In this document: positions 9,799 to 51,368 of the stretch, piece after piece
Layout: the number at the start of each line of letters is the position of its first letter
Position numbering within the stretch: position 1 is the stretch's first letter
DNA from: Halioglobus sp.
GTDB lineage: Bacteria > Pseudomonadota > Gammaproteobacteria > Pseudomonadales > Halieaceae
Direction: 5' to 3'
Assembly (NCBI GenBank): GCA_002699145.1
Contig: PABK01000061.1
Coordinates: forward strand, 62,001-126,000
DNA: 64,000 bases
Program-made: the position numbers and the translations under genes
The notes under the pieces: model-generated
Told to the model about the DNA's origin: nothing
The model's database searches: none
The model's input: only the letters and a program-made list of their open reading frames with translations

Positions 9799-9881
9799 GC
9801 CTGTCCATTGCCGCAAAGTCAGCCGCTAGTGTGGCCAAGGCCGCGGGGCTTGTCACCCGACTTAACCCGGGCGAGCGCTTC

Positions 9882-9896: not shown

Positions 9897-9997
9897 CGCC
9901 ATGTTGCGGAGCTTAACAGGCTCCCGGCGCTATGCTGGACCCCAGTTCGGCGACGGCAGGTACGTTCGCCGGCAGCCCACAACAGGAGGACAAGCTT

Positions 9998-10498: not shown

Positions 10499-10548
10499 GC
10501 CGCGCAATGACCCACCCAACCCGGGGCTTCCCTGTCACCGGGTCCCTT

Positions 10549-10574
10549 GAGGCGGCCTGGCCGCCTCTTTTTTT
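10549..10574 (+). terminator. intrinsic terminator of the CpxP-like gene
   Basis: A perfect 8-bp stem GAGGCGGC / GCCGCCTC with loop CTG is followed by seven T residues (10568-10574). It lies 50 nt after the CpxP-like stop codon and before the convergent M16 peptidase gene. Confidence 0.92.
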
Positions 10575-10693
10575 GCCGAGCTGCGCGTGTTGCTGTGCGG
10601 TTTCCCTGGCCTGGCGGCAGGCTCGCCGGGCACCGAATCTCGCCACCGAGCAGGTACACCCCGTGCAGATTGCGCGGCGTGCCCCGCGACAGG

Positions 10694-13636: not shown

Positions 13637-13674
13637 AGGGGTCTCGTAGCCGGGGAAATATGCAGGGAGCTATT

Positions 13675-27920: not shown

Positions 27921-28972
27921 AGGGTAGTGCTCGCTGCTTCGGTCGTTGTCGTTGGTCGCCGGCCGCGCTCGCCCACCAGTTGCTGCGCGCGACGCAGGAC
28001 GTCGGCGCCGGCTTCTGGCCGGAAGGCGTTCTCGCTCAGGTGGCGGCGGAAGCGCCGCGCCCCGGGCACGCCCTGGTACAGGCCCAGCAGGTGGCGCGTC
28101 ACGTGGTTCAGCCGGCCGCCCCCGGCCAGGTGCGTCTCGATGTAGGGCAGCAGCGCGCGCAGCACATCATCGCGGCAGGCGGCGGGATTGTCCACGCCGA
28201 ACAGGCGCCGGTCCGCGTCCGCCAGCAGCCAGGGGTTCTGGTAGGCTTCCCGGCCCAGCATCACGCCGTCCACGTGGCGCAGGTGTTCCTCGCATTCCTC
28301 CAGGGACTGGATACCGCCGTTGAGGACGATGGTCAGCTGGGGGAAGTCACGCTTGAGGCGGTACACCCAGGGGTAGTTCAGCGGCGGGATCTCGCGATTT
28401 TCCTTCGGCGACAGGCCCTGCAGCCAGGCCTTGCGCGCGTGCACGATAAATACCTCGCAGCCCGCCGCGGCCACCGGTTCGACGAACGCGGCCAGTTCCT
28501 CGTAGTGCTCCATGGCGTCGATACCGATGCGGTGCTTCACCGTCACCGGCAGGTCGCAGGCGTCGCGCATCGCCGCCACGCAGTCGGCCACCAGTTGCGG
28601 CCGCGCCATCAGGCAGGCGCCGAACATCCCCGACTGCACCCGGTCCGAGGGGCAGCCGCAGTTCAGGTTGACCTCGTCGTAGCCCCAGTCCTGCGCCCAG
28701 CGCGCGCAGCGCGCCAGCTCCGCCGGGTCTGAACCGCCCAGTTGCAGCGCCACCGGGTGCTCGGCGTCGTTGTAATGCAGGAAGCGTTCGCGCTCGCCGT
28801 GGATCAGCGCGCCGGTGGTGACCATCTCGGTGTAGAGCAGGGCGCGGCGCGTCAGCAGCCGCCAGAAAAAGCGGCAGTGGCGGTCGGACCAGTCCATCAT
28901 AGGAGCAATGCAGAACCTCCGCTCCACGGATGTTGTTGATATTCCTGTATTTTCCCTTGTTTTTCCTGACAT
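27917..28972 (-). CDS. dusA: tRNA-dihydrouridine synthase DusA with a prophage-derived N-terminal extension
   Basis: The FMN-dependent TIM-barrel enzyme shows FCIAPMMDWSDRHCRFFWRLL, LYTEMVTTGALIHG, ALQLGGSDP, EVNLNCGCPSDRVQSGMFGACLM (catalytic Cys), VKHRIGID, VFIVHARKAWLQGLSPKENREIPPL and LNGGIQSLEE, all diagnostic of DusA. It reduces U20/U20a in tRNA. The first ~20 codons from the ATG at 28970-28972 are A-rich and unlike the rest. They lie beyond the known dusA phage att region and are probably contributed by the prophage. A GTG at 28925-28927 is an alternative start. Its stop overlaps the TerB-like ATG. Confidence 0.93.
   Translation of the reverse strand: MSGKTRENTGISTTSVERRFCIAPMMDWSDRHCRFFWRLLTRRALLYTEMVTTGALIHGERERFLHYNDAEHPVALQLGGSDPAELARCARWAQDWGYDEVNLNCGCPSDRVQSGMFGACLMARPQLVADCVAAMRDACDLPVTVKHRIGIDAMEHYEELAAFVEPVAAAGCEVFIVHARKAWLQGLSPKENREIPPLNYPWVYRLKRDFPQLTIVLNGGIQSLEECEEHLRHVDGVMLGREAYQNPWLLADADRRLFGVDNPAACRDDVLRALLPYIETHLAGGGRLNHVTRHLLGLYQGVPGARRFRRHLSENAFRPEAGADVLRRAQQLVGERGRRPTTTTEAASTTL
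28876..28905. other. candidate attL (integration site inside the 5' end of dusA)
   Basis: This is the stretch encoding the IAPMMDWSDR region of DusA, the segment known to be used as attB by many dusA-integrating phages. Left of it the DNA is chromosome-like and reads as intact dusA. Right of it the sequence becomes A/T-richer and leads into the integrase gene, which is next to dusA as in other dusA-integrated elements. The exact core cannot be defined because the right end of the element is outside the window. Confidence 0.55.
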
Positions 28973-29021
28973 TGCGCTTGGACGTTACCGGGTGTTTTTC
29001 AGGGGTTTTCTGGTGTTTTTG

Positions 29022-29063
29022 TGTCCCGGGTGTCCCTATAATGTCCCTGTCATTTTGGGGACA
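29022..29063 (+). promoter_or_regulatory. integrase promoter with repeated TGTCCC motif
   Basis: A perfect TATAAT -10 lies at 29037-29042, with only a weak T-rich -35. Around it are three direct TGTCCC copies (29022, 29031, 29042) and one inverted copy GGGACA (29058-29063), placed over the -10 and downstream. The start codon of the integrase is at 29079. The repeats could be binding sites for integrase, an excisionase or a repressor. Confidence 0.6.
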
Positions 29064-29078
29064 CTGGGAAAACGCCGT

Positions 29079-30128
29079 ATGGCGAGTATTGTCGCGCGCC
29101 CGAGAAAGTCGGGCACAGTATATCAGGCCAAGATACGCATCAAGCGAGACGGGAAGATTGTCTGGCAGGAGTCCGAGACCTTCAGCAAGCGGGCCCTGGC
29201 GAAGGAATGGGCTGCCCGACGCGAAGTCGAGCTGCGCGCGCCTGGCGTGCTTGAACGTCTGACCCACGTGGGGCTGACCATCCGGACGGTGCTGGAGTGG
29301 TACCTCGAGGACTTCGACGGCGCGACCCAGTTTGGCCGCACGAAGCTGTCGCATATCAACTTTCTGATGGGGCAGCCGATTGCCGACCTCGATGCGATCG
29401 CGCTGACCTCTCGCCAGGTCCTGGCCCATCTGCGGGAGAGGCGGCAGACTGCATCCGCGGCGACGGTGAACAACGACGTGATCTGGCTGAGCAATGCCTT
29501 CCGGTCGGCCCGGGTGGACCGTGGAGCGCCTGTGAATTCTCAGGCCCTGGACGACGCGGCATACCTGGCGCGGAAGGAGAGATTGATCGGCAAATCCAAG
29601 GAGCGCAACCGCCGGCCGACCATGGACGAACTCGAGCGCCTTGTGCGCTACTTCCAAGCGCAGCGTCGGAACAAAATTCCGATGGTCGATATTATCGGCT
29701 TCGCGATTTTTTCCACCCGGCGCCAGGAGGAAATTTGCGAGATTCGGCGCAGCGATATGACCAATGGTGGCGTGTGGGTGCGGGATATGAAGCACCCGAC
29801 TGAGAAGAAGGATACCTTCGTCTTTCTGCCTGAGCGCGCCCAGGCGATCGCTGACCGACAGCCGGCCGGCGACGTGGTGTTTCCCTACAATTCGAAGAGC
29901 GTGTCGGCGGCGTTCACCAAGGCATGCAGGTACCTTGGCATCGAGGACCTGAGATTCCACGACTTGCGCCATGAAGGGATCAGCTACCAGTTCGAACTCG
30001 GCAAACAGATCCCCGAAGTGGCCATGATATCCGGCCACCGGTCCTGGGCGAGCCTCAAGCGGTATGCCCACATTCGGGAAATGGAGGATCGGTATGCGAA
30101 CTGTGAGCTGTTCAGCCATTGCAGCTAG
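29079..30128 (+). CDS. int: tyrosine recombinase (phage integrase)
   Basis: The 349-residue protein starts MASIVARPRKSGTVYQAKIRIK, a usual integrase N-terminal (arm-binding-like) segment. Catalytic residues are visible: Arg in FAIFSTRRQEEICEI, His-X-X-Arg in FHDLRHEGISYQFELG, His in ISGHRSWASLKRY, and the nucleophile Tyr in KRYAHI. A SAM-like core-binding domain precedes the catalytic half. The frame is open upstream to 28908, but the ATG at 29079 is preferred because the upstream part has no family character. It is next to dusA, as is typical for dusA-targeting integrases. Its 3' end overlaps the convergent PrtN-like gene by 17 nt. Confidence 0.93.
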   Translation: MASIVARPRKSGTVYQAKIRIKRDGKIVWQESETFSKRALAKEWAARREVELRAPGVLERLTHVGLTIRTVLEWYLEDFDGATQFGRTKLSHINFLMGQPIADLDAIALTSRQVLAHLRERRQTASAATVNNDVIWLSNAFRSARVDRGAPVNSQALDDAAYLARKERLIGKSKERNRRPTMDELERLVRYFQAQRRNKIPMVDIIGFAIFSTRRQEEICEIRRSDMTNGGVWVRDMKHPTEKKDTFVFLPERAQAIADRQPAGDVVFPYNSKSVSAAFTKACRYLGIEDLRFHDLRHEGISYQFELGKQIPEVAMISGHRSWASLKRYAHIREMEDRYANCELFSHCS

Positions 30129-36249: not shown

Positions 36250-36277
36250 CCCCCGGGCTTACCACCCGGGGGTTTTT
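36250..36277 (+). terminator. intrinsic terminator in the late leader
   Basis: A perfect 8-bp stem CCCCCGGG / CCCGGGGG, loop CTTACCA, followed by TTTTT. It lies 13 nt upstream of the first late gene and 130 nt after the last early gene. The 169-nt leader (36121-36289) otherwise shows only a possible weak promoter (TTGCGC at 36121 and TAGCAT at 36144, 17-nt spacing). Confidence 0.9.
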
Positions 36278-36289
36278 ATTGGTGCCCCA

Positions 36290-36724
36290 ATGATATTCAA
36301 CAAAGCACGTGGCTTCGCGCTTGGGATGGCCGAGGGCAATATCGTAGTCTCGCCGCCTCCTGGCACAGCACAATTGGAGTACCGGTTTACTACCGCGGCC
36401 GATGTGCTGTGGAATTCCCAGCTCACGCCTGGCTTCGGGGCTGCGTTGGTCGCGGACACCTTTCCGGACAAGTCAGCTTCCGTAGCCGACTCTGGGTGGA
36501 ATCTCGGCGGAACCAACCAATTCGATGTCGTGCTCAACGACAAGACGGTGGTTGCCACCGGTGGCCAGGTCATCTTCCAGTATGTGTGGCTTGTAGAGCA
36601 GGGGGCGCCTCAGAAGCGCCTATTGGGTTTCTGGGACTTCGGTGAACCGCAGACGGTCCTTGATGGACAATCAATGCTCTTGGATTTACAAGATGAGAAC
36701 AATGTTGCGTTTTCTCTCAACTAG
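36290..36724 (+). CDS. hypothetical late phage protein
   Basis: The 144-residue, beta-rich product begins MIFNKARGFALGMAEGNIVV and contains QLEYRFTTAADVLWNSQL and QVIFQYVWLVEQG. Its ending GFWDFGEPQTVLDGQSMLL resembles small virion decoration or fibre-base proteins, but no family is recognised. It is the first gene after the leader terminator. Its last 32 nt overlap the start of the giant HzsA-like gene, so the two are translationally linked. It has no signal peptide. Confidence 0.6.
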   Translation: MIFNKARGFALGMAEGNIVVSPPPGTAQLEYRFTTAADVLWNSQLTPGFGAALVADTFPDKSASVADSGWNLGGTNQFDVVLNDKTVVATGGQVIFQYVWLVEQGAPQKRLLGFWDFGEPQTVLDGQSMLLDLQDENNVAFSLN

Positions 36725-39700
36725 CCTGCTGCTGCTGGCCGCGGTTGCGGCGCATGGCATGCCTCTCGGTGGGGGGCAGACGGCGCACGCAGAGGCCAAC
36801 ATCGCATCGTTCGACCCAACGACCTATCCCATCACGCGCGTCGGCCTGACTCTGCAGTTCGATGAGTCTGATCCGATGGATGTGGGGGAGCAGATACTGC
36901 TGCGGGTATACAACGGCGCAGGTGTTGAGGTCGCTACCGCGCAATGCACCAATGACTTTGCGCAACCGATCTATACGGCGTCCTGTCTCTCTGCGATCCT
37001 GAGCGCGGCTGTGCCGGATTCGACCTTCGATGTTGCACTTGAGTCCCTGGCGGGCACGATGGAGATCGATTCCGCCGCGCTGGTCGTTCACAGCGCGCCA
37101 GGCGTGAATCGCAAGCGCGAGTCAGCAACCCTCACGCTGGAATCGGGTTCGCCGGGTGCACTCGACCCGATCGATTGGAGCCCCGGGGTCATCTTTGATC
37201 TTGGCGGCTTCGACGTGTATCAGGGCTATTTCCCCGACACTGGCCCATACGTGCCGTCCGGTGTCACCGTCGCATCATCCAGCTACCCGACCACGCTCAG
37301 TGCAGTACATCCCAGCGGCGTTGATCAGCCAGCGAACGAGAACCCCGCCCGTTACCCCATTGCCTACAACCTGAATGAAGGCGCGCAATCCAACAGTCAG
37401 CGCCTGGTCATGGTGTTGCATGGTGATGGCGCAGGCGAAGAGGCCTGCCATGGCTATGGCGTGAATGTGGCAGACGAGATGAGGGTACGACTGTGCAACT
37501 CGGAATATCCGAGTCGTGATAGCGTGGACTATCAATCGCAAGGGCTCGGGGGAACCGCTGGGTGGTGGACCTACTGGGGCGGTACCCCGTCCTGTCCGCA
37601 GTGTTCATCCAACGCCGCGGGCCAGAGAATTGCCCAGGCCATCGTCGAACTACAGGCAGATCACGCTGGCATACTGGATGTGGCCGCAGGTGTCATGCTG
37701 ACGGGGAGCGACTACGGCGGTATCGGGTCGATCAATCAGTCCATGGTGCTACCGCGCGTGCGGGATCAGGTCGCGATTGTTTATTCCACCGCGTCGTGGA
37801 CGAATCTCGTAGAGCATCCCAGTGGATACGATGCTAGTACCGAGATACAAACTGCCTGGGGCAGCAATGACCCTGACTCGGTAAACTTCAACGTGCAGGC
37901 CGCCACCGGCGCGCTCGATCACATTTTCTATCGGGTCCACGGCTCAACGCAGGACAATGAGACGCCGCTCTCACAGAGTTTTTTCACAGCCTGTAACGAC
38001 TACAAAATCGCTTGCCTTGGCACGTGGCATGCGGCGGTACCGCATGGCGGCGACCCTGGCCACCAGGGAGGGGAGGACGGGATCGATCTGCCCAGCATTC
38101 TGTTCCCTGACGCGAATATGGATGTTCGCCTCGACCAGCCATTAATCGTTTATACGAACTCGACCGGGAACCAATTCGGGCTTCGAGGACATTACAACCT
38201 GGGGCTCAGCTGGGATAGCGCAGGTATCGTTGCCGATACGGACAGCCTTACCGTACCGCTGAAATACACCCACGCCACTGGCCTCTCCAGCGATCCGGAG
38301 AAAGCCTTGCCAGATCAGCCGACCGATATCACAGTGAGTGTGACGATACGGCGCAGCAACACGTTTATCATCCAACCCAGCCAGAGCGTTGAATGGTCCT
38401 ATGGTGGTCAGGGAGGCATTGTAACCGCGAATAACCAGGGCGAGGTGACTATTGACGGCCTGGCGATGAGTAGCAGTAGTGCCTACTCCGATCTCGTTCT
38501 ATCACGGCCTGAATCTCAAGCAGGAATCATCTATACGCGATCGCTGATTGCATCCAATCCGGTGCCACAAAATGGCTGGGATGATGCCTCCGCGGCGCAG
38601 AAAGTTACGGATGTAAAATCGATTCACGGTGATTTTACAGAGGCCGATATCGTCTATGACGATTTGAACGGTAACGTCTATGTCGTTTTCAATTGCACGG
38701 GCGATCCGATGCTCGACTGTGTCGCCCAGGAGCCGCGCGTCAGCCCGGACGGAACGAAGGCGCTTTTCACGGTCGGGATTGCAGATCAGATGGGCGGGTT
38801 CGGGCAGACAGAGTTCATCCAGACACTCAAGACATCACAACTCTACCTGTACGACATTACCAACCCATCTGCACCGCCAGTACCGGTAGACACTTTGCCT
38901 GGACCAGACGCCATGGCCAGGATGCCGGATTGGATCAACAATGAAACATTCGTGTTTATGGCAACGTATGCACAGAAACATCCGATCAAAGGCACATCGG
39001 AAATGTACACGTTCCCCGATCAGTTTGGACACACACACTATGGGGCCGATCGCTGGGGTATTTCCCAAGAATACTACACCGGCAACGTAGACCCATACGG
39101 TATCAGCGCCAAAGGTGGGGCGCATTCCCTGCAGCTCTACAAGATGAACATTGATGGTACCGGAGAGTGCGGAGCCAGCTATCTCAATCCAGGCACTGGC
39201 AACCAGCCGTGTCTGCTTACGCCCCATGAGTACATGGCCCTTCGCCCAACGGTGTTAACGACGGGCGATATAGTGTATTCGTCACTGCAATCGCATTCCG
39301 ATAAGGCGCGGGACTCTGCATCACCAGGGCATGGTACGAGGATGAACAAGTGGTGGATCGCCCGGACGGACCAGTGGGGTGGGGACGCGACGATACTTGT
39401 GAATGCGCACTCCAAAACGCCGGTCATCGAAACCAAGTCACTGCTGAATCCGGTACTGTATAGCGGTGGCGAGGGGTCGGATCAGTTTCGCGCATTGCGG
39501 GCCATCGGTGAGGATGACCAAGGCAGGCTGTACGTTACCAACTACTATCGCGGCAATCACAGGGGCTTGGGTATCATCTTCCGTTTCTCGATCACGGACC
39601 CGCACGTGGAAGGATGCAGCATTCTCGACAATATCCCTGCGGCAGTGTTCAGTAGTTCCACTCCCGGCAGTGGCGGCTATATGCCGTGTGATATCGAGTC

Positions 39701-41300
39701 GTTCACGCCTGCAGGTAATTCTCAGGATGGAGAACCGCGGCGATTCGACAACCCGTTCACGCCAGAAGACGACAATATCGTGGTCGGAAAGGCAGGTTAC
39801 TTCGCGGCGGGGCCCAATGGACAGAAAATTATTACCTGGGGGCGAGGTCACTGCTTTTCGCCGTATGCGTACGAGGGTTCTCCCTATATGAGGCATTCTT
39901 GGTCGAACCTAGATACGACCTGTGACAGTGGTATTTACGAAGTTGGTGTTGACCAGCTGCTGAATCCTTTCGATGGCGTCAATGAACTCATCCCGATCGT
40001 GGATTCGCCTGATTATCACGAGTGGGATGCGGTATCGGTAGCCACGTATCAGGATCGATACGGGCAGCCCATGCCCACTCAGCAGCCCAACCCGCACACG
40101 AATCCTGGCGGTGCTTGTTATCTCGAGGTCGCGGATGCCACGGAAGCTGAGTTGGCGTCTCGCTACGGATATGTCTACGACTTCCTCACGAAACGCTGGT
40201 CGAACTGTGGTGTACAGGGCTGCGCGGTCAAGTCGGAAGATCCGGCATTCCACGCCAACACCATCGCTGGGTTCAAGATTCTCAAAGCTGACCTCTGGGA
40301 TACCTACTACCCCAGCACCTTATTCAAGGGCACGATGAATGCGTTTGGCTTCAAAAAGGTCACGGACCTGGGCACGCAGCCCCTCGAGGCAGATGGATCA
40401 GTGAAGGTGCGCGTGCCTTGCGATACGCCCTTGCTCATGGCGGGTGTAGATTCGGATGATCTGGCTATCGCCTATGACCACATGCTGCAGTCCTTGAGGC
40501 CTGGCGAGACGCGGACCTGCCATGGGTGCCATGCGCGGCACGGCCAAGAGGCGTGGGAGGCTGGAGGTAGTATTACTGCCGCAGCACACTTTGACGGCAA
40601 GGATGCAGAGGGTACTACGCCGCCTCTTCTGGCTGGTACTGAATCGCTGGATTTTGCTACGGATATCGCCCCGATACTGGATACGCGCTGCAAGTCCTGT
40701 CACGCAGAAATGAATGCGTCCGATCCCCACCTGTATGCAAAAGTCGCCCAGGACTTCCAGCAAAGAGGCTTCAATTTCCTTGAGCGCACATATCAAGGTG
40801 CTCGAACCGGGACTGGTGTCAAGCACATAAGGATCAAGTCCGGGGGCACTGGCTACGCACCTGGGGAAGCGATATCAGTTGCCGGAGGCAATGGTGCCGC
40901 TACGGGGTTTGTCGCGTCAGTTGACGGCTCCGGTGCGATCACAGCGATCACTATGAATGGTGCCGAAGGCTATGGCTACGACAATGGTGCTGTCGCGACC
41001 GTGACGACGGCGGGGGGCTCCGGCGCCGAGTTGATTGCGCAAACCGAAGTCGTCTTTCTTGTGCGGCCGCAGATGTCGAAACTGGTAGCAAGATTTGGCC
41101 GCGAATCACTGTTGTACTGGGCTTGTATGGGATCGCGGCAGGATGGGCGGACCAACGAGCAGTATGCGACCGATATCGATTTTGATGTGCCCTCGCATCC
41201 GGATGCTGGTGATCCTGGCTATGCCACGGTGGCAGAGTGTCGGAAAATCGCCCGCTGGATTGACCAGGGTGCGCATGGGTATGTGGCTCCGAATCTATGA
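36693..41300 (+). CDS. giant secreted HzsA-related diheme protein carried by the phage
   Basis: From the ATG at 36693 the product is 1535 residues with a Sec signal peptide (FLSTSLLLLAAVAAHG). An N-terminal beta region is followed by an alpha/beta-hydrolase-like stretch (LVMVLHGDGAGEEACHGYGV, LTGSDYGGIG) and then, from about residue 640 to 1290, a propeller-like region resembling hydrazine-synthase-alpha-related proteins, ending with VRVPCDTPLLMAGVDSDD and LRPGETRTCHGCH. Two haem motifs are seen, C1276-HG-C1279-H and C1333-KS-C1336-H (in DIAPILDTRCKSCH). Between the second motif and the end is a GGTGY-type repeat domain common in phage virion proteins. The ATG of the next gene overlaps its stop (ATGA). 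Haem attachment and a redox role are inferred. Confidence 0.8.
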   Translation: MRTMLRFLSTSLLLLAAVAAHGMPLGGGQTAHAEANIASFDPTTYPITRVGLTLQFDESDPMDVGEQILLRVYNGAGVEVATAQCTNDFAQPIYTASCLSAILSAAVPDSTFDVALESLAGTMEIDSAALVVHSAPGVNRKRESATLTLESGSPGALDPIDWSPGVIFDLGGFDVYQGYFPDTGPYVPSGVTVASSSYPTTLSAVHPSGVDQPANENPARYPIAYNLNEGAQSNSQRLVMVLHGDGAGEEACHGYGVNVADEMRVRLCNSEYPSRDSVDYQSQGLGGTAGWWTYWGGTPSCPQCSSNAAGQRIAQAIVELQADHAGILDVAAGVMLTGSDYGGIGSINQSMVLPRVRDQVAIVYSTASWTNLVEHPSGYDASTEIQTAWGSNDPDSVNFNVQAATGALDHIFYRVHGSTQDNETPLSQSFFTACNDYKIACLGTWHAAVPHGGDPGHQGGEDGIDLPSILFPDANMDVRLDQPLIVYTNSTGNQFGLRGHYNLGLSWDSAGIVADTDSLTVPLKYTHATGLSSDPEKALPDQPTDITVSVTIRRSNTFIIQPSQSVEWSYGGQGGIVTANNQGEVTIDGLAMSSSSAYSDLVLSRPESQAGIIYTRSLIASNPVPQNGWDDASAAQKVTDVKSIHGDFTEADIVYDDLNGNVYVVFNCTGDPMLDCVAQEPRVSPDGTKALFTVGIADQMGGFGQTEFIQTLKTSQLYLYDITNPSAPPVPVDTLPGPDAMARMPDWINNETFVFMATYAQKHPIKGTSEMYTFPDQFGHTHYGADRWGISQEYYTGNVDPYGISAKGGAHSLQLYKMNIDGTGECGASYLNPGTGNQPCLLTPHEYMALRPTVLTTGDIVYSSLQSHSDKARDSASPGHGTRMNKWWIARTDQWGGDATILVNAHSKTPVIETKSLLNPVLYSGGEGSDQFRALRAIGEDDQGRLYVTNYYRGNHRGLGIIFRFSITDPHVEGCSILDNIPAAVFSSSTPGSGGYMPCDIESFTPAGNSQDGEPRRFDNPFTPEDDNIVVGKAGYFAAGPNGQKIITWGRGHCFSPYAYEGSPYMRHSWSNLDTTCDSGIYEVGVDQLLNPFDGVNELIPIVDSPDYHEWDAVSVATYQDRYGQPMPTQQPNPHTNPGGACYLEVADATEAELASRYGYVYDFLTKRWSNCGVQGCAVKSEDPAFHANTIAGFKILKADLWDTYYPSTLFKGTMNAFGFKKVTDLGTQPLEADGSVKVRVPCDTPLLMAGVDSDDLAIAYDHMLQSLRPGETRTCHGCHARHGQEAWEAGGSITAAAHFDGKDAEGTTPPLLAGTESLDFATDIAPILDTRCKSCHAEMNASDPHLYAKVAQDFQQRGFNFLERTYQGARTGTGVKHIRIKSGGTGYAPGEAISVAGGNGAATGFVASVDGSGAITAITMNGAEGYGYDNGAVATVTTAGGSGAELIAQTEVVFLVRPQMSKLVARFGRESLLYWACMGSRQDGRTNEQYATDIDFDVPSHPDAGDPGYATVAECRKIARWIDQGAHGYVAPNL

Positions 41301-44203
41301 CGGAGTTCGTCAATACACTCAAGCCGTCAGGAGGTCACTACTCAGTCATACAGGACTGGATCGATGATCTTGCCACGACCGTGGGCTCGCCGGATTGGTC
41401 AGCCCATCCCGTTGTCATACTCAATTTTGCGAACTATGGCGACAGTCATGGAACCGGCAAGACCAAGCCGACCGTGGGAAGCGTCTGGATAGGTCAAACG
41501 TCTGGAGCGGTCGCGGTGGTGCTCACTGAGTCGCAGGACTCCAGTTGCCTGGCGATTCGCACCAGTGGTGCGGCCTTCGTATCTGGTGAGCCGTGCGTTC
41601 AGTATGGCGTCAACGATACCCTCGATTTGGTTGGTTCGCCCGCTGCTTGCTCAGGCGCGGTGCTGGAGTGTTACGACGGCGACTATGGTGGGGTCAACGG
41701 CGCATACACCCAGTCGACACTAATCCCCGACGAGATTGGCAATGCCAACACCCAGATCGTGATACGGGCCGCGGCCGGACAAGATCATGCCGGCGAACTC
41801 GATGCCGGTTTCAAAATTCGGTCAGTGAACGAGTGCTTTCACGTTGAAGGTAAGTACGTCACGTTGGACCGGCTGCAGCTGAAGGTAACGGGTGGCGGGC
41901 AATACGCGGTCGAGCTCTATGCGCCGCAGTCGGTTGTGCTTTCGCGGCTACTCGGTCAATGCCAGACCGACTGCGGGTTCATCGTCATGTACGGCTCGCT
42001 CAACCAGGCAGAGGACGATGTCATCATTGATCGTTGCGTCGGTTATGATTCACCGACCTGGCCAGTGTTTAACCTGGGGCGAGGCGTGACGATGCGCAAC
42101 TGCGGTGCCTATGGTAGCGCGACCGGTATATCGTTCATCAATAACTGCCGCATTGAGAATTGTGTCGCTTTTGGCAACGGCACAGATTTCGCTTTCTCAG
42201 CTGCGAACGCAGGGAGCGGCCACAACGCCAGTGGGGATATGACGGCACCCGGGTCGGCCAGCCAAACTGGCTTGGACAATGCGGATTTCGTCGACTACCC
42301 GGGTGACAATTTCCGGCCCGCGTTGACGCAGCAGCTGGCCGGGAACGGCGCTGACCTGTCTGCGCACTTCACTGCGGATATTGCGGGCCAGGACTATGTC
42401 AACTGGGATATTGGACCCTACGTCAATGCGTCTGGCACTTCGAGCCTGAGCTTCGATGGTCCGAATATCCCCGACCAACAGGCCACAGGCCACGATCCCT
42501 ACAGTTTTTCGGTTGCGGGCAGGTGGTCCAGCGATGATGAACCACTGACGTACAGTGAGTCACCCGCCGGCGCTGCATGGCCGTCCTGGCTGAGTATCGA
42601 TGCGAATTCAGGCATCCTCACCGGTATGGTCTCGGATAACGCGCAGATCGGCACAACAGCTGGCCTGATCGTTCGTGTGACAGATAATTTGGGGGCGGAG
42701 GCCGATTCCAACGCCTTCTCCATGGAAGCGGTGAAGCCCGCGCCGGCCAGTTTTAACCCATCGTTGCCGGCGGATGTGCAGGTCGGGCTTGGTGCGATGG
42801 TGAGTTTGGCCTATCAGATGAACGCACCCGCGCCGCCACTTGCAGCCGTATGGCAGGTTGATGTGGACGGTCTCGGCTCCTGGGAGACCGTCGATCCTGC
42901 TACCTCGGACAACCCGTATGAATTCACCAGCGTAGCAGGCGACGATGGTGACAAGTACCGCTTCCTCTACTGGGATGTGTACCAGCAGATCGTCACGACC
43001 CGAGAAGCGACCATTACGGTCATAGCCGCAGCACCGGTGATTAATGCAAGTTCGCCGGCAGATCAAGCGGTGCTGCAAGGCAACAATGCAGTGTTTGCGG
43101 TTATCGTGGATGACGGCACCCCACCATACAATTTCCAGTGGTATGAGGTCGGCGTAGGGGTGATGCCAGGCGAGACGGGCGACTCGTTAACGATCGCTGG
43201 TGTAGCGTACCCTGGCGACGATGAGCGGCAGTTCTACTGCGAAGTGACAGATCAGTTCCTGAATATGTCGCAGTCTCGAACTGCGACGCTCGTTGTGCCA
43301 TCAACTCCGGTCGATGCCGATCCAAGCAAGCCCGCTGACGCGGCCACCATACCTGGCCAGGCGGTCGTCTTTGAGTCGGATATCACCAATGCAGACGGCG
43401 GCTTGATGTACCTCTGGGAGTACAACGACGGCGTGTCGGGTTGGCTGCCGATGGCAGGCGAGGACCAGGCTACTCTCACCTATACGCCGTCCGCACCATC
43501 AGAGCATGGCTGGCAGTTCCGGTGCCTCTACGGTGATGGGTACGAGCAGACAGGGTATACCCGCGAGGCCACACTCGATGTTGCGGTCTACGCGGAGCTT
43601 GAGCGTGGTGTGCTCACCATCAATGGCGATTACGACCTGTACCTGTACGTGTTGGGTAGCCCGCCGGCACCATCTAACATTGTGGCCGACAGTACTGCCC
43701 AGGTGCAGGAAGCCGAACAACCAGCGCTCGCCCAGGACTATCAAGTGGTTGTCCTCGGCGCTGAGCAGACCCAGGCTCAGGACGCGGTACTGCTCTCTCT
43801 GGAGCATGTTTATCCTGATGACAGTGCTCAGCAGCAGACGATGTCAGAGCCTGACGTGTGGATTGAGCTCATCACGCCGGAGCATTCCGAGCAGGAGCAG
43901 TCACTGGACCCTGGGGGCGTCATTCCATCGTATGTGCCTCTGGTCGTGGTCGACAGTGCCGAGCAATCGCAGTCGCTCGAGCAGGCGGTATTCACCCAGA
44001 ACTATGTACTTTCCGTGGATGATACTGAGCAGGCGCAACTGCTCAGTACCGCCACGCTTACCGTGGCCCAGGCGGTCGCGATTCATAACACCGTCCAGCG
44101 CCAATTTGCGGATCAGGCTGGCTTTGCGTTCGTCGTGGGGCTCAAGTTGGAGGGAGAAATCATCACCTACGCCGCTCTGGGCGGTGAGATCGTTACCTAC
44201 TAG
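41297..44203 (+). CDS. phage adhesin / tail-spike-like protein (beta-helix, Ig-like and AEQ-rich repeats)
   Basis: The 968-residue protein has no signal peptide. Residues ~60-340 form a right-handed beta-helix pattern (HVEGKYVTLDRLQLKV, VIIDRCVGYDS, VTMRNCGAYGSATGISFINN). A putative-Ig (He_PIG-like) domain follows (SSLSFDGPNIPDQQATGHDP, GILTGMV), then Ig-like segments (NFQWYEVG, LMYLWEYND). The C-terminus has about five ~35-residue repeats rich in Ala-Glu-Gln, for example DSAEQSQSLEQAVFTQNYVL, a repeat type common in phage fibre or tail proteins. It is translationally coupled to the HzsA-like gene (ATGA). Confidence 0.8.
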   Translation: MTEFVNTLKPSGGHYSVIQDWIDDLATTVGSPDWSAHPVVILNFANYGDSHGTGKTKPTVGSVWIGQTSGAVAVVLTESQDSSCLAIRTSGAAFVSGEPCVQYGVNDTLDLVGSPAACSGAVLECYDGDYGGVNGAYTQSTLIPDEIGNANTQIVIRAAAGQDHAGELDAGFKIRSVNECFHVEGKYVTLDRLQLKVTGGGQYAVELYAPQSVVLSRLLGQCQTDCGFIVMYGSLNQAEDDVIIDRCVGYDSPTWPVFNLGRGVTMRNCGAYGSATGISFINNCRIENCVAFGNGTDFAFSAANAGSGHNASGDMTAPGSASQTGLDNADFVDYPGDNFRPALTQQLAGNGADLSAHFTADIAGQDYVNWDIGPYVNASGTSSLSFDGPNIPDQQATGHDPYSFSVAGRWSSDDEPLTYSESPAGAAWPSWLSIDANSGILTGMVSDNAQIGTTAGLIVRVTDNLGAEADSNAFSMEAVKPAPASFNPSLPADVQVGLGAMVSLAYQMNAPAPPLAAVWQVDVDGLGSWETVDPATSDNPYEFTSVAGDDGDKYRFLYWDVYQQIVTTREATITVIAAAPVINASSPADQAVLQGNNAVFAVIVDDGTPPYNFQWYEVGVGVMPGETGDSLTIAGVAYPGDDERQFYCEVTDQFLNMSQSRTATLVVPSTPVDADPSKPADAATIPGQAVVFESDITNADGGLMYLWEYNDGVSGWLPMAGEDQATLTYTPSAPSEHGWQFRCLYGDGYEQTGYTREATLDVAVYAELERGVLTINGDYDLYLYVLGSPPAPSNIVADSTAQVQEAEQPALAQDYQVVVLGAEQTQAQDAVLLSLEHVYPDDSAQQQTMSEPDVWIELITPEHSEQEQSLDPGGVIPSYVPLVVVDSAEQSQSLEQAVFTQNYVLSVDDTEQAQLLSTATLTVAQAVAIHNTVQRQFADQAGFAFVVGLKLEGEIITYAALGGEIVTY

Positions 44204-45198: not shown

Positions 45199-45705
45199 GT
45201 GAACCTGGCGGACAATCGTTGGGATCACGACTTCCGCCTGGCCTCGGTGCAGTATCTGCCTGATCTGGACTGGCGATGGCTCAAGGCGCAGTGCTATCAG
45301 GAATCGCGCTACAACAATCGAGCGGTGTCGCCGGCCGGAGCACAGGGCCTCATGCAGATTATGCCCGCAACCTGGCGCATGCTGGTGGAGCGCGAGAAGA
45401 TACCGCCGACCGCCGATCCTTTCTGCGGGCGCGACAGTATCCATGCCGGCGCGATCTATCTGGCGATGTGCCGCAAAACATGGTGGTGGCAACGGCCAGA
45501 GATTGATCGCCTCGCGCTTGCATTGGCCAGCTACAACGCGGGCTCCGGGCATCTACTCACCGCGCAGCGCAATCAAGGCGACCCGAGCGACTACGCCGGC
45601 ATCATTGCGGGTCTCCCTGCCGTCACCGGCGATCACTCCAAGGAGACGATCGCATACGTGCGTAGGATATTTACCTATTTCCGCCAGCTGGTGGTGGGCA
45701 GTTAG
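45199..45705 (+). CDS. SLT-domain lytic transglycosylase (endolysin)
   Basis: The 168-residue protein begins at GTG after AAGGGG. The SLT catalytic motif is clear: AQCYQESRYNNRAVSPAGAQGLMQIMPATW (catalytic Glu in QESR) and LASYNAGSGHLL. There is no signal peptide, so release needs the holin encoded next. It cleaves murein glycan at the end of infection, or less likely acts as a virion lysin. Confidence 0.9.
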   Translation: MNLADNRWDHDFRLASVQYLPDLDWRWLKAQCYQESRYNNRAVSPAGAQGLMQIMPATWRMLVEREKIPPTADPFCGRDSIHAGAIYLAMCRKTWWWQRPEIDRLALALASYNAGSGHLLTAQRNQGDPSDYAGIIAGLPAVTGDHSKETIAYVRRIFTYFRQLVVGS

Positions 45706-45714
45706 GAGCGCAGC

Positions 45715-45972
45715 ATGACGAACCTACAGAAGTTCATGGAGGAGCGTTTCTGGACGCGCAAATTCCTGCTGGCGGCTTTCGTACAGGTGACAGTGACGCT
45801 GTTGATGTCGGTGAGCAAAATCGACGGCAGTGTGTACCAGGCGATCACAATCACAGTGATGGGTTCTTTCGCTCTCGCCAATCCAGCTGAGCACTGGGTA
45901 CAGATGCGAAGGCTCGAGATCGAGGCCGAGAAGGAGGCGCGCAATGCTCAGCATGCTCCCAGCACCAGTTAA
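45715..45972 (+). CDS. holin-like small membrane protein
   Basis: The 85-residue product begins after AGGAG and has two membrane segments (FLLAAFVQVTVTLLMSV and AITITVMGSFALANPAEHW), with a charged C-terminus (EIEAEKEARNAQH). Position between the endolysin and the Rz gene supports a holin. Its last 29 nt overlap the Rz start. Confidence 0.75.
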   Translation: MTNLQKFMEERFWTRKFLLAAFVQVTVTLLMSVSKIDGSVYQAITITVMGSFALANPAEHWVQMRRLEIEAEKEARNAQHAPSTS

Positions 45973-46540
45973 GGCCTGGGCCAGCCAGTACGCGATCTGG
46001 CTAAAGGTAGCTGCGGCATTGTGCGTCGTGGTGGGCGGTGCTGCGGCAGGCTGGCAAGCCAGGTCCGTACTGGCGGATAGGGAACTGGCCAACAAGGATT
46101 TAATACTCGCAACGCTGCGCGCCAGCGCAAGTAAGGCCTATGCCGAGAGCCTGTCGGGAGCCCGCGAATTGGAGAAGCAGCGCGAGATCAATGCGCAGTT
46201 GCTGGATCGCAATCGTGTGCAGCGCGAGCAGGCCCTGCGCTTGCACAGCGTAGCACTATCCCAAGAGGTACTGTCCTATGCGCAAGCTGATACTGGTCGC
46301 GGTTGTGGCCTTGATCCTCGAGGCGTGCAGCTCCACGACCAAGCCGCTGCCGGTCCCTCCGGAGTGCCCGAGGCCTCCGGTGGCGCCAGCCGATCTGATG
46401 GCCCCGCCGCCAGGGCTCCGGCGGCTCGGATAGTCGCCGTGGTGACGGAGAACTATACAACCTATCACGCAGTCGCCGGGCAACTGGCCGACCTGCAGGC
46501 CTGGGTTCGCGACGTGTGTGAGGTGAGCGGGCGTGGGTAG
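45944..46540 (+). CDS. Rz-like inner-membrane spanin subunit
   Basis: The 198-residue product has one N-terminal membrane segment (IWLKVAAALCVVVGGAAAGW), then a periplasmic helical region (ELANKDLILATLRASASKAYAESLSGARELEKQREINAQLLDRN) typical of i-spanins. It contains the Rz1 gene in another frame (46278-46433), so its C-terminal half codes for both proteins. It joins inner and outer membranes at lysis. It starts inside the holin gene. Confidence 0.8.
   Translation: MLSMLPAPVKAWASQYAIWLKVAAALCVVVGGAAAGWQARSVLADRELANKDLILATLRASASKAYAESLSGARELEKQREINAQLLDRNRVQREQALRLHSVALSQEVLSYAQADTGRGCGLDPRGVQLHDQAAAGPSGVPEASGGASRSDGPAARAPAARIVAVVTENYTTYHAVAGQLADLQAWVRDVCEVSGRG
46278..46433 (+). CDS. Rz1-like outer-membrane spanin lipoprotein (embedded in Rz)
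   Basis: A 51-codon gene in another frame inside Rz. It has a short signal with a lipobox ending at Cys17 (ILVAVVALILEAC), followed by a small Pro-rich mature part (LPVPPECPRPPVAPADLMAPPP). An AGAGGT ribosome site precedes the ATG. This is the classical lambda arrangement, where Rz1 lies in the +1 frame of Rz, and together they fuse the membranes. Confidence 0.88.
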   Translation: MRKLILVAVVALILEACSSTTKPLPVPPECPRPPVAPADLMAPPPGLRRLG

Positions 46541-46832
46541 CGATCGCAAAGTGACGAAACTGTCGGAGTATACCGACGATACGCTATACGCGGACGTGCC
46601 GGGCGTGCTCGATGAGGCGGCGCGCGACTTTGCACCGGGCGGCGCGTGGGAAGACAGGGACAATATCTTCGTTTTCACGTTGCGTCGTGGGTCGGGGGCA
46701 TTTGATGTCAGGCACAACAGTGCAGGTTTGACCTGCACGGATGTCATTTTGGCATGTCGTATTCTTGAGGCGCGGATGCTTCGCTACATGGGCGAATCGC
46801 TTGGGCCTGGAGATATCGAGATCGTGGACTAA
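46533..46832 (+). CDS. hypothetical small phage protein
   Basis: The 99-residue product starts at GTG overlapping the Rz end (8 nt). It is acidic and contains YADVPGVLDEAARDFAPGGAWEDRDNIFVFTLRRG. No family recognised. It sits between the lysis cassette and the terminase genes, and may be a small regulator or lysis accessory; nothing in the sequence says which. Confidence 0.55.
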   Translation: MGSDRKVTKLSEYTDDTLYADVPGVLDEAARDFAPGGAWEDRDNIFVFTLRRGSGAFDVRHNSAGLTCTDVILACRILEARMLRYMGESLGPGDIEIVD

Positions 46833-46842
46833 CGGTTGCTTC

Positions 46843-47412
46843 ATGGACTACGAACAGCGAAAAGCCCGGGTCAAGGAACTCAAGCAGCAGATGCTGGAAA
46901 CCCCCACGGGGCGAAAGCACCTGGCTGTGGCAGACGCGATCATGGCTGGGAAGACCAATGGCGAGGCTTACATGAGCCAGTATCCACGCACCCAGAATCT
47001 CGATACCGCCTGCGCCAGTTGCCACAATTTACTAAAAAATACTAAATACTGCGCCGGTGAGTACCTTGAGCACATGCGCTGGCTCGCCAATGCCTCAGCA
47101 TGCGAAAAACTCGCTATAGATCAAGAGTTTGTGCTCGGAAATCTAAAGTCGATCAGCCAGCGTTGTATGCAGCGTGAGGCCGTTTTGACCAAGAAAGGCG
47201 AGCACGTGGTCATCGAGGACGAAAACGGGGATCTGGCTCACGCCTGGACCTTCAATGCCGCCGGCGCGCTGCGGGCGAATGAACTGCTCGGGAAAGAACT
47301 CGGGATGTTCAAGGATCGCGTCGAGCACGACGCCAGCGACCCGCTGCGCGACATTATGGAACGCATCGGGCGCTCCCGGGAGGGGGCCAGCCCGCTGCCC
47401 AGCGGTGAATAG
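46843..47412 (+). CDS. terS: terminase small subunit
   Basis: From the ATG at 46843 the product is 189 residues; the frame is open upstream but without a good start. The pattern VADAIMAGKTNGEAYMSQYPRTQNLDTACASCHNLLKN, then EYLEHMRWLANASACEKLAIDQEFVLGNLKSISQRCMQREAV resembles Terminase_2-type small subunits (HTH-like N-terminus, helical oligomerisation region). A CASCH in the middle is not a haem motif here: the protein has no signal peptide. It lies directly before the large subunit. Confidence 0.75.
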   Translation: MDYEQRKARVKELKQQMLETPTGRKHLAVADAIMAGKTNGEAYMSQYPRTQNLDTACASCHNLLKNTKYCAGEYLEHMRWLANASACEKLAIDQEFVLGNLKSISQRCMQREAVLTKKGEHVVIEDENGDLAHAWTFNAAGALRANELLGKELGMFKDRVEHDASDPLRDIMERIGRSREGASPLPSGE

Positions 47413-47415: not shown

Positions 47416-48999
47416 GTGTCAGCCCTGCCCAGTGGACTCAACCATGACCCGGAATCGCCCCAGGTCACTGATGCGCTGTTGCAGGAGGTCGAGGCCCATC
47501 TGCACGACTGGCACTGGCGGATCAATAATTTATACCGGATCACCGACAAGCGCGGGGTCGAAGTCCAGTTCCAGCTGAACGCCGCGCAGCAGCGATTCTT
47601 CGAGGATATGTGGTACCGCAACCTGATCCTCAAGGCCCGGCAGCTGGGCTTCACCACGTTCATGCTGATCTTCATGCTGGACGCGGCCCTGTTCACCCCG
47701 AATACCCGGTGCGGCCTGATCGCGCACACCCAGCTCGATGCGAAACGCCTGTTTCGGGACAAGCTGCGGTACGCCTACGACCGGCTGCCGGAATGGCTCA
47801 GGCAAAGGTGCCCGGCGCGGAACGATAGCGCCGGCGAACTGGTTTTCGACAACGGGTCCAGCGTCACTGTCGGTACCAGCTACCGCGGCGGTACCTTGCG
47901 CTACCTGCACGTCTCCGAATTCGGGAAGATTTGCCGGCAGTACCCGCACAAGGCCACGGAAATCGTCACCGGTGCGTTCGAGTCCGTCGGCCTGGATTGC
48001 GTCATCACGATCGAGAGCACGGCCGAAGGCCGGCAGGGCCACTTCTACGAGTACGCCCAGCAGGCCGAGCGCGATCACCTGGCCGGTGTTCAGCTGACGC
48101 GCCTGGATCAGAAATTCTTCTTCTATCCGTGGTACGACGATCCGGCCTATACCGTCTCGGAGGATGAGGGGCGCGATGTCGTGATCCCCAGGCGGCTGAT
48201 CGACTATTTCGTCGACCTCCGCAAGAAGCACGGGATCAAGCTCAGCAAGGGCCAGATGCTGTGGTACACGCTCAAGGAAAAGTCCTTGGGCGGACACATC
48301 AAGCAGGAATACCCGACCACCCCGGCTGAGGCATTCTGGCAGTCACTCGAAGGCTCCTACTACAAGGAGCAGTTCGATGCCATCTTCGAGCAGAAGCGCA
48401 TTTGCCGGGTGCCGCACCAGCCAGGCGTGCTGGTGCATACCATCTGGGACCTGGGCGTCAATGACGCCAATGCAATCTGGTTTGTCCAGCGATCGGGCCG
48501 TGAGTGGCACCTGATCGACTACTACGAGAATAACGATGTTGGCGTGGATCACTACGCCAAGGTGCTGCATAAGAAGCACACCGAGCTTGGTTACGAGTAC
48601 GGTCTGCACGTCGGCCCGCATGATCTGGAGGTCCGGGAATGGGGCAACGACGGCAAGACCCGGCGCCAGGCTGCGAGAGACGCCGGCATCCACTTCTTGC
48701 CGGAGCCGGCAAAGATGGGGCTGGTCGATGGCATCGAGGCCGCCAGGACCATCCTGCCGCGATGCTACTTCGATGAGGAACGCACCGCGGACGGTACGGC
48801 GCACCTGCAGGCGTATCGCAAGGAATGGGATGACAAGCGCGGTATGTGGAAAGACAAGCCGTTTCACGGCCCGGAGAGTAACGGTGCCGACTCGTTCCGC
48901 TACTTTGCCGTCAACGCCTCGATCATAGATCAGTTTATGCACAACACCAGTAAACCGGCGATGCAAAAGCCGGCAGGCCCGGGAGGCTACTACGCATGA
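47416..48999 (+). CDS. terL: terminase large subunit
   Basis: The 527-residue packaging ATPase/nuclease begins at GTG 3 nt after the small subunit stop. Visible parts: adenine/Walker A-like region NLILKARQLGFTTFM; the ATPase region with GTLRYLHVSEFGKI and ITIESTAEGRQGHFYEY; and the nuclease half with HTIWDLGVNDANAIWFVQ and the HVGPHDLEVREW segment, including the acidic Asp residues. It cuts and packages DNA at the portal. The next gene overlaps its stop (ATGA). Confidence 0.92.
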   Translation: MSALPSGLNHDPESPQVTDALLQEVEAHLHDWHWRINNLYRITDKRGVEVQFQLNAAQQRFFEDMWYRNLILKARQLGFTTFMLIFMLDAALFTPNTRCGLIAHTQLDAKRLFRDKLRYAYDRLPEWLRQRCPARNDSAGELVFDNGSSVTVGTSYRGGTLRYLHVSEFGKICRQYPHKATEIVTGAFESVGLDCVITIESTAEGRQGHFYEYAQQAERDHLAGVQLTRLDQKFFFYPWYDDPAYTVSEDEGRDVVIPRRLIDYFVDLRKKHGIKLSKGQMLWYTLKEKSLGGHIKQEYPTTPAEAFWQSLEGSYYKEQFDAIFEQKRICRVPHQPGVLVHTIWDLGVNDANAIWFVQRSGREWHLIDYYENNDVGVDHYAKVLHKKHTELGYEYGLHVGPHDLEVREWGNDGKTRRQAARDAGIHFLPEPAKMGLVDGIEAARTILPRCYFDEERTADGTAHLQAYRKEWDDKRGMWKDKPFHGPESNGADSFRYFAVNASIIDQFMHNTSKPAMQKPAGPGGYYA

Positions 49000-49388: not shown

Positions 49389-51368
49389 ATGCAGCTTGTG
49401 GCAGTGCAAACCCCGGCCCAGGTCACGGAGCGGATCGAGGCCGAGAAAGCGCGGCGGATCGCCAATGGTCGGGTACAGTACCAGCAGCCGGAAATCGTGG
49501 ATGCCCTGGCCAACAAGGTGCGCGGCGACTGGCAGATCGCCAAGAGCACGAAGCAGGTCGTCACGCAGCGGCTGGTGGACTGCCTCGAGCGCCGCAGCGG
49601 GGAGTACTCCGCACAGAAACGCCAGGAGATTGCCCAGACGCAGGGCAGCGGTATCTACATGCAGCTGACAGCGGCCAAGTGCCGCGCGGCGAAAGCCTAC
49701 CTGTCGGACCTCTACACACCTTCTGGCGACCGGCCTTTCACGATTAAGCCAACGCCGATCCCCGAACTGCCGCCTCAAATCCAGCAGAAGCTGATGGCCG
49801 AGGCCATGGCGGTGCTGAATCAGTCGCAGATCGAACCGGCCGCGGTCGCACAGATCCTCGAAAAGCACAAAGAGCGGTTGATCGGCGAACTGATGCACCA
49901 GGCAGAGAAGCGGGCGGAGAAGATGGCCGACCATGTCGAGGATATGCTGGTCGAGGGCAAGTTCCGCACGGAGTTCGACGCCTTCCTCGATGATCTGGTG
50001 ACGTACCCGGCGGCGATTATAAAGGGTCCTGTCTTTGCCAATCGGGCCAAGATCAAGTGGGTTGAAGTCCAGGGTCAGTACGCGCCCCAGCGCTCACATG
50101 AGATCGTGCCGGAGGTTCGTCGGGTGTCGCCGTTCGACTCCTATCCAAGTCCTGGCGCGCGAGCGGAGCTCGGCGGACATTGGCACATCGAGCACCGCCG
50201 CTTTACCTTTTCCGAGCTGGCATCTATGCGGGGCGCGCCAGGCTACAACACGCTCGCGATCACCAGAGCGCTGCATGAATATCGCCAGGGCGGGCTGCAT
50301 GAGTGGATCTGGTCGGAGGAAGAGCACCGCCGTCTGTCGGGCCAGAACAGCGTCTACGGTCGGCGGGAGACAATCGATGCACTGGAGTGGACCGGCACGA
50401 TGTCCGGCCAGATGCTGGTCGACTGGGGCATGAACCCGCAGTCAGTCCCTGATCTGGTCAACGAGTACCCGGTGTCCGTTATCGTGGTCGGGAACTTTGC
50501 GATCCGTGCGCTGGTGAACCCCGATCCGGCGGGCAAGCCCGACTACTTCAAGGCGTGCTGGGAGAATGTACCGGGCTCATGGTGGGGCCGCGGCCTGCCG
50601 GAGATCATGGCCGACTGCCAGGATATGTGTAACGGCGTGGCCAGGGCGCTGGCCAACAACCTGGGCCTGGCGAGCGGTCCGCAGGTCTGGGTGAACAACG
50701 CCTACGCGGAGGATGGCGCAGACTACCAGACCATCTATCCCTGGAAAATATGGTATTTCCGCACGCCGACCACGAACAGCGGGCAGCAGCAGAAGCCGAT
50801 GGACTTCTTTCAGCCAAACAGCCACGCCAGCGAGCTGATGGAGGTCTACGAGCGGTTTGCGAAGTACGCCGATGAGGTCACGGGCATGCCGGCTTTCGCC
50901 TACGGATCGGACAGCGGTGCCGGCGCGGCCAAGACCGCATCCGGCCTGTCGATGCTGCTCAATGCTTCGAGCAAGACCATCAAGTCGGTTGTGCACAATA
51001 TCGATATCCACGTCATCGAGCCGCTGGTCGAGAAGTTCTACAACCACGTGATGATGACCCACCCGGACAACAGTATCAAAGGGGATGCTGTCGCGAAGGC
51101 CCGCGGTTCCGAGTCGCTGATCCACAAGGAAGCCGCACAGGCCCGGGCCCAGGAACTGCTAGGCATTCTGAGCAACCCCGTGGATCAGCAGATCATTGGC
51201 CTTGACGGCCGCCTCGAGTTGCTGAAGGAAGTGCTGAATACCGGGGATATGCCGGTAGAGCGCATCCTGCCATCGCTCGAAGAGCTGGCGGCGAGGCTGC
51301 AACCGGCTCCCCCGGAAGCTGGCCCTGGCGATAAATCCGAGCAGCAGCCCCAGGCGGCCGCGGCATGA
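49389..51368 (+). CDS. portal protein
   Basis: The 659-residue protein has GAGGG about 10 nt upstream of the ATG. Features of podovirus-type portals are visible: a long helical N-terminal region, then IKGPVFANRAKIKWV, RRVSPFDSYPSPGAR, CWENVPGSWWGRGLPEIMADCQDMCNGVARAL, and the C-terminal crown with SKTIKSVVHNIDIHVIEPLVEKFYNHVM. The C-terminus is Pro/Glu/Gln-rich. Position directly after the terminase agrees. It forms the dodecameric DNA channel. Its end overlaps the next gene (ATGA). Confidence 0.88.
   Translation: MQLVAVQTPAQVTERIEAEKARRIANGRVQYQQPEIVDALANKVRGDWQIAKSTKQVVTQRLVDCLERRSGEYSAQKRQEIAQTQGSGIYMQLTAAKCRAAKAYLSDLYTPSGDRPFTIKPTPIPELPPQIQQKLMAEAMAVLNQSQIEPAAVAQILEKHKERLIGELMHQAEKRAEKMADHVEDMLVEGKFRTEFDAFLDDLVTYPAAIIKGPVFANRAKIKWVEVQGQYAPQRSHEIVPEVRRVSPFDSYPSPGARAELGGHWHIEHRRFTFSELASMRGAPGYNTLAITRALHEYRQGGLHEWIWSEEEHRRLSGQNSVYGRRETIDALEWTGTMSGQMLVDWGMNPQSVPDLVNEYPVSVIVVGNFAIRALVNPDPAGKPDYFKACWENVPGSWWGRGLPEIMADCQDMCNGVARALANNLGLASGPQVWVNNAYAEDGADYQTIYPWKIWYFRTPTTNSGQQQKPMDFFQPNSHASELMEVYERFAKYADEVTGMPAFAYGSDSGAGAAKTASGLSMLLNASSKTIKSVVHNIDIHVIEPLVEKFYNHVMMTHPDNSIKGDAVAKARGSESLIHKEAAQARAQELLGILSNPVDQQIIGLDGRLELLKEVLNTGDMPVERILPSLEELAARLQPAPPEAGPGDKSEQQPQAAAA

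Follow-up and report, generated by a model that had tools for sequence, protein, structure and literature searches.

A Halioglobus prophage and three other phages carry a module that pairs a hydrolase-like domain with a putative HzsA-like haem protein

The best-described relative of the protein considered here is the alpha subunit of hydrazine synthase (HZS), HzsA, of anammox bacteria (PDB 5C2V), in which Tyr591 is the proximal ligand of haem alphaI, the catalytic haem (PMC12607021). HZS homologues are known in Planctomycetota and Desulfobacterota, where they are divided into clades I to IV (PMC12758564), and a wider hzs-like family has been described (PMC10732223). The window analysed here, 64,000 nucleotides of Halioglobus sp. 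(PABK01000061.1, positions 62,001 to 126,000; part of contig C4 in a 5.2-Mb genome), contains a gene at 36693..41300 for a 1,535-residue protein, P0001, in which a hydrolase-like domain is fused to an HzsA-like diheme region. The gene sits inside a 43-kb prophage. What is new is that the hydrolase-like plus HzsA-like module recurs in four phages, of which one is another prophage in this genome. Judged by title, opening of the abstract, or selected passages (those of PMC8115048, PMC9083009, and PMC8788666 included), no openly licensed paper retrieved reports a phage-encoded HzsA relative. We are confident that the module is cargo common to several phages and that it is HzsA-like without being a hydrazine synthase. 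All coordinates are those of the window, and features lie on the forward strand unless stated otherwise.

The frame encoding P0001 (36693 to 41297, with the coding gene running to 41300) is open for all 1,535 residues and has an alternative start at GTG 36642. Judged by eye, the N terminus (MRTMLRFLSTSLLLLAAVAAHG...) resembles a Sec signal peptide, likely spanning residues 1 to 33 or fewer (36693..36791); a first-pass annotation of this DNA had called the protein secreted via Sec, and the call stands to the extent of that resemblance. The hydrolase-like domain (approximately residues 216 to 606, 37338..38510) is followed by an HzsA-like region (approximately residues 610 to 1215, 38520..40337) that is perhaps a beta-propeller; relatives and one of the other phages (phage D, below) have weak TolB/PD40 matches, mostly below the cut-off. 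The Pfam HZS_alpha middle domain (PF18582) covers residues 1215 to 1280 (40335..40532) with an E value of 3.1e-11 and 44.1 bits, above the cut-off of 26.6. Haem motif I, CHGCH (C1276 to H1280, 40518..40532), stands in the context VRVPCDTPLL...LRPGETRTCHGCH, and haem motif II, CKSCH (C1333 to H1337, 40689..40703), lies within DIAPILDTRCKSCH; a GGTGY-type insert (residues 1367 to 1455, 40791..41057) and His1502 (41196..41198) follow. The length of the frame and the places of both CXXCH motifs agree with the first-pass annotation. P0001 is probably an exported HzsA-related protein, diheme by motif.

The proposed relatedness to HzsA was borne out by PF18582 and by a profile of 14 relatives, whose one match in the PDB was HZS alpha (5c2v_A; whole-sequence E 7.2e-10, a value that sums three stretches, each weak); P0001 as a single sequence gave one chance-level PDB match only. 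With the numbering of 5c2v shifted by 27, an offset chosen because it matches the residue numbers given in PMC12607021 and PMC12758564, C1276/C1279/H1280 align with the chain residues matching C583/C586/H587 of haem alphaI. C1333/C1336/H1337 and H1502 align with haem alphaII, H1337 at the place of His689 and H1502 at that of the distal ligand His772, so that the bis-His pair is kept in the alignment. CXXCH I and H1283 are invariant in all 18 aligned sequences, and CXXCH II and H1502 in the 15 long enough to cover them; the three that do not reach H1502 are those of phages B and C (described below), which end earlier, and L061, which is cut by a contig end. In phage D, which is outside this alignment, CXXCH I is present and the His lies one residue closer.

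The HZS_alpha domain, the two haem motifs, and the kept bis-His pair of haem alphaII are what would be expected if the phage carried an auxiliary nitrogen-cycle gene, that is, a working hydrazine synthase alpha subunit. However, the Tyr591 position (H+4) is Gly1284 in P0001 and Ser in the others (17/18 aligned sequences), the NCBIfam HzsA equivalog model NF052339 gives P0001 32.3 bits against a cut-off of 800, and the HzsB model reaches 36 bits against a cut-off of 560 in the same genome, with weak matches also in 3 of 14 control genomes. Homologues outside anammox bacteria are described as lacking key residues (PMC12758564). With Tyr591 replaced and both models below their cut-offs, P0001 is HzsA-like but very unlikely to make hydrazine; identity as hydrazine synthase was rejected on sequence grounds, and the chance that the phage carries a working alpha subunit is vanishingly small. 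P0001 resembles HzsA in its HZS_alpha middle domain, in the order of its two CXXCH motifs, and in H1337 and H1502, but is phage-borne and has a fused hydrolase-like domain and an extra N-terminal part. It shares with HZS-alpha homologues of clades I to IV the loss of key catalytic residues, and clades II and III are described as without haem alphaII and approximately the last 100 residues (PMC12758564), which resembles the missing second haem domain of phages B, C, and D. Clade I is said there to be without His772, whereas its counterpart is kept in the P0001 alignment. Unlike all four clades, P0001 is phage-borne, and no HzsBC-like gene was recognised beside it, although HzsC was not searched for.

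The module is carried by four phages of IMG/VR, which have three sample numbers between them. Phage A is the prophage of the window, phage B lies on contig C24 of the same genome (IMGVR 3300020466_000335), and phages C and D are IMG/VR 3300025018_000311 and 3300048597_000667. Phage A is also present in IMG/VR as virus 3300020466_000336 (43,132 bases), of which 22,219 bases were compared and found 100% identical to window positions 29079 to 51297, so this entry is the same DNA and not an independent copy. In phage B the module is a 1,116-residue fusion with one CXXCH and a lipobox (LGGC, by eye), in a prophage with genes for a terminase small subunit, an endolysin, a ParB-like protein, and an integrase, and with tRNA-Pro at its end. 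In phage C the one-haem copy comes right behind a phage lysozyme gene, with head-closure and DNA-ejection proteins encoded upstream and a DNA methyltransferase downstream; its HzsA-like open reading frame (ORF) is without a clear in-frame start, and immediately upstream, in a different frame, there is a stretch resembling a signal peptide (L054, approximately 9800 to 10262). In phage D the module comprises two genes, one hydrolase-like and one HzsA-like with a single haem motif, and a small ORF stands between them. A Q-like antiterminator gene follows directly, then an amidase gene, and the HzsA-like protein exceeds the PF18582 cut-off with 32.8 bits. The copies of phages B, C, and D have nearly the same end point after the first haem motif, and none has a second haem domain.

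When ORFs were compared (39 of phage A, 54 of phage B, and 19 of phage C and 31 of phage D, the last two sets from part of a contig), A and C had only the module in common with other phages. B and D shared three further genes, a terminase-size protein and a replication-type ORF (labels by reading) and an ORF of 220 to 255 residues. As would be asked of phage cargo, the module is thus flanked by phage genes in phages that share little else, B and D having those three genes. Among 72,556 plasmid records, 4 had weak matches, in the haem region only (residues 1211 to 1367); the matching plasmid proteins of NZ_AP025309, NZ_OY725748, and NZ_AP025307 are annotated as SUMF1/EgtB/PvdO family. The lambda-like Cronobacter phage phiES15 offers a parallel in that it has accessory genes between its Q/replication region and its lysis genes, but those encode a kinase and a phosphatase, whereas the product here would be an exported haem protein.

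Relatives in cellular genomes are common near the host. The full query found relatives in 18 of 37 near genomes (its own counted), a profile of six sequences had matches in 34 of 140 genomes of the family, and PF18582 matched in 94 of 390 genomes sampled from the order. A single-haem profile matched in 81 of the 390 order genomes at E 0.001, with a best value outside its own genome of 3.1e-43, and in the class sample matched only its own genome at E 1e-15 (1/369). Chromosomal HzsA-like proteins of Halieaceae (Halioglobus and Haliea metagenome-assembled genomes) resemble P0001 over the whole of residues 600 to 1535, with the insert in a subset, and have a hydrolase-like gene adjoining or fused, but are only 34 to 44% identical to it. 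The genome of the window itself encodes a further HZS_alpha protein in a 942-residue frame (C3, at 355455). Neighbourhoods were compared at 25 loci by shared protein clusters, a few proteins being checked by Pfam. Some relatives have DUF3604, sulfatase-like (by eye), Abhydrolase_3, or molybdopterin oxidoreductase genes as neighbours; DUF3604 near HzsA-like genes was Pfam-checked at L037 and recognised by similarity at L038, L039, L035, and L049. At L118, a 1,203-residue hydrolase-HzsA-like fusion (10230 to 13841) stands among glycosyltransferase-type and polysaccharide-type genes, labelled by eye.

These relatives also decided two claims about the makeup of P0001. The GGTGY-type insert occurs in 7 of the 14 sequences of a first alignment and in 6 of the 18 of the larger one (P0001 counted in both; three of the 18 stop short of this position), and since chromosomal relatives have it, the domain is present as first described but the label "phage-type" was dropped. 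The idea of an adhesin that had borrowed a cytochrome module was not supported either: residues 600 to 1535, together with the insert, belong to a single protein family conserved in the host group and were not pieced together by the phage.

The hydrolase-like domain is joined to this region in some members and separate in others. It is encoded separately, directly upstream of the HzsA-like gene, at chromosomal loci L040 and L041, so that the module has a two-gene layout there and in phage D and a fused one in phages A, B, and C and at L034. In 15 aligned sequences the candidate Ser of its G-x-S-x-G-G motif is Ser in 9, Gly in 5, and Asp in 1, the last being Asp340 of phage A (37710..37712); the Ser is kept in phages B, C, and D and several relatives. 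Counterparts of the candidate Asp and His (Asp421 and His500) are present in all four phages, and many members have the candidate Ser, Asp, and His in the nucleophile-Asp-His order. In contrast to phages B, C, and D, 4 of the 5 Halieaceae chromosomal fusions examined have lost the motif Ser (the host's own C3 copy, L056, L057, and L118), and 3 of those 4 have lost the His as well; L055 keeps both.

In a tree of 24 HzsA-like cores, phages B, C, and D formed one clade (100/100), and A stood apart on a long branch. The tree program warned of possible false joins between the long phage branches, including that of B with D. Among 200 bootstrap trees, a single clade of all phage copies was recovered in 0% when D was left out and in 2% when it was included, and the approximately unbiased test did not reject such a clade (p 0.35). 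A 15-row tree of the hydrolase-like domain was largely unresolved, neither grouping the phage copies nor recovering B, C, and D, and so lends no support to the module having travelled as one unit. The phage copies sit on branches of 1.2 to 1.8 changes per site, a length that, together with the missing second haem domain of B, C, and D and the change from Ser to Asp in A, would suit a neutral passenger kept by chance. However, the frames remain open over 666 to 1,535 residues and their haem ligands are intact despite great divergence, and we consider a neutral passenger unlikely.

Codon usage suggests a long stay in phages. The distance of the P0001 gene is 5.1 to phage genes and 10.3 to chromosomal genes, whereas for the chromosomal copies the two distances run the other way (6.7 and 3.9 on C3, 6.0 and 2.8 on C42); the reference sets were twelve profile-matched phage genes and five Pfam-checked chromosomal genes, and an earlier comparison with seven chromosomal ORFs, four of them without a family check, had the same outcome. 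The gene has a G+C content of 57%, compared with 68% for the DNA flanking the prophage on the left. With such phage-like codon usage the P0001 gene looks like an old phage gene and not a recent slip from the host. Because the host genus has chromosomal relatives, a host gene taken up by recent mis-excision, or a chimeric assembly, had to be weighed. None of the long matches found exceeds 44% identity, the codons resemble those of phage genes more than those of chromosomal ones, ORFs overlap the gene at either end, and the module recurs in other phages, all of which makes this origin very improbable. Chromosomal contamination was ruled out by the last point together with the codon usage, and the segment's assignment to the phage in the first-pass annotation was upheld.

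Placement within prophage A agrees with this assignment, as phage genes extend from the integrase side through lysis, terminase, portal, and head genes, in keeping with the annotation's placing of the gene among phage virion genes. The integrase ORF (28908..30128) lies beside dusA (27917-28972, reverse strand), a known integration site (PMC4482086). Before the HzsA-like gene come genes for the integrase, a replication-like protein, a dATP/dGTP pyrophosphohydrolase family protein, and an HNH protein; after it come those for an Ig/Hoc-like protein (968 residues, 41297..44203, with no signal peptide by eye), a transglycosylase-type endolysin (45199..45705), an Rz-like spanin (45944..46540), terminase small and large subunits (46741-47412 and 47416-48999), a portal/head-tail adaptor protein (49389-51368), a major head protein (52849-53781), and a tail fibre protein. 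A terminator-like hairpin of 8 G-C pairs followed by a T-rich stretch (36250..36272) precedes the operon. Terminator-like sites in the region number 9 against 9.2 expected in shuffles, so this call depends on the quality of the hairpin and not on the count. A 144-residue ORF (36290..36724) overlaps the start of the HzsA-like gene, and the start of the Ig/Hoc-like gene overlaps its stop by 4 bases. Examined for a promoter and terminator of its own, as an autonomous moron would have, the gene showed a terminator-like site upstream and overlaps with both neighbours, and no sigma-70-like site is listed on the forward strand between 35616 and the gene. The hairpin and the overlaps suggest that the HzsA-like gene takes the second place of a late operon.

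Its location among late genes, with an Ig/Hoc-like gene starting inside its stop, could indicate a virion protein, such as a tail fibre or adhesin. This is quite unlikely given the signal-peptide-like or lipobox N termini of A and B (by eye), the retention of haem motif I in all aligned copies, and the occurrence of relatives in numerous cellular genomes, within both the genus and the family, at loci that, where compared, share no other gene with the prophage. A lysis or release factor, in which the hydrolase-like part would help break the envelope in time with endolysin and spanin, would fit the nearest lysis gene found in each of the four phages (3.9 kb away in A, 7.5 kb in B, 0.4 kb in C, and 1.0 kb in D). 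Each of phages A to D, however, has an ordinary endolysin-type gene, the module stands before Q in phage D, and lysis would leave the haem part unexplained, which makes such a factor rather unlikely.

At its far end the prophage closes with a 2,912-residue ORF (63472 to 64000 in the window and on to 72210 of C4), the last large ORF. IS21-like genes come next, labelled by reading translations, with a transposase pair (by eye) at 72293-74588 in window numbering (L033) directly past the prophage. The right flank (74600 to 83900) has 52% G+C, against 68% on the left. Repeat searches did not find attR.

The best overall explanation, which we hold with moderate confidence, is a phage cargo gene that joins a hydrolase-like domain to a distant HzsA relative and has a role in the envelope. 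As versions occur in four phage genomes, the product is probably an enzyme used by phages in the envelope of marine bacterial hosts; we somewhat favour P0001 being an exported haem-containing envelope enzyme, and the most likely time of its predicted action is infection or lysogeny. The suggestion in the first-pass annotation of a lysogenic-conversion or infection-time periplasmic redox protein is a reasonable one. The protein would pass through Sec to the periplasm or outer membrane, hinted at by the signal-peptide-like N terminus in A and the lipobox in B, and the host Ccm system, of which CcmH is present in the genome, would attach haem. The propeller-haem part may then bind a substrate, handling either electrons or some small reactive molecule, and cutting or release of that substrate may fall to the hydrolase-like part, although a coupled hydrolysis-redox step of this kind is doubtful. 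The phage would gain an altered host envelope or extracellular chemistry during infection or lysogeny.

Several observations weigh against this explanation. Phages A and B are from a single genome and have the same sample number. PF18582 scores phage C at 22.1 bits, below the cut-off, and does not match phage B. Pattern-based scans of IMG/VR for the module yielded only these four phages, and queries with A or B found no relative among 50,697 GenBank phage records, so the module looks like rare cargo. The first-pass annotation had described an alpha/beta-hydrolase-like part, and the domain is conserved, but that label holds for the motif only: Pfam assigned no family to the 413-residue hydrolase-like piece of P0001 and none of the alpha/beta-hydrolase fold to eight aligned members, a PDB profile search with the domain gave two chance-level matches, neither of the fold, and alignment by hhalign to true alpha/beta hydrolases had a probability of 0.3%, with only the GxSxGG stretch aligned. 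In phage A even the candidate Ser of that stretch is replaced by Asp. Signal peptides were judged by eye, and the expression, haem attachment, and enzyme activity of P0001 are predictions from sequence.

To our knowledge, phage accessory genes mostly encode cytoplasmic enzymes or small toxins, and it would be out of the ordinary, if true, for several distinct phages to have retained a large haem protein that is exported. A more speculative extension, which we offer tentatively, is that marine gammaproteobacterial temperate phages carry an undescribed class of exported HzsA-like haem enzymes paired with a hydrolase-like domain, that the lineage of phages B, C, and D has been pared down to a single catalytic-type haem, and that the enzyme may reshape host envelope or periplasmic redox chemistry during infection, for example by altering receptors or oxidising a released substrate. 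These proteins form a natural set of HzsA-like sequences that lack Tyr591 and have either one or two haem motifs; the set may serve as a probe of the role of the wide non-anammox family, and cultured Halieaceae with such prophages, if found, could make the question testable.

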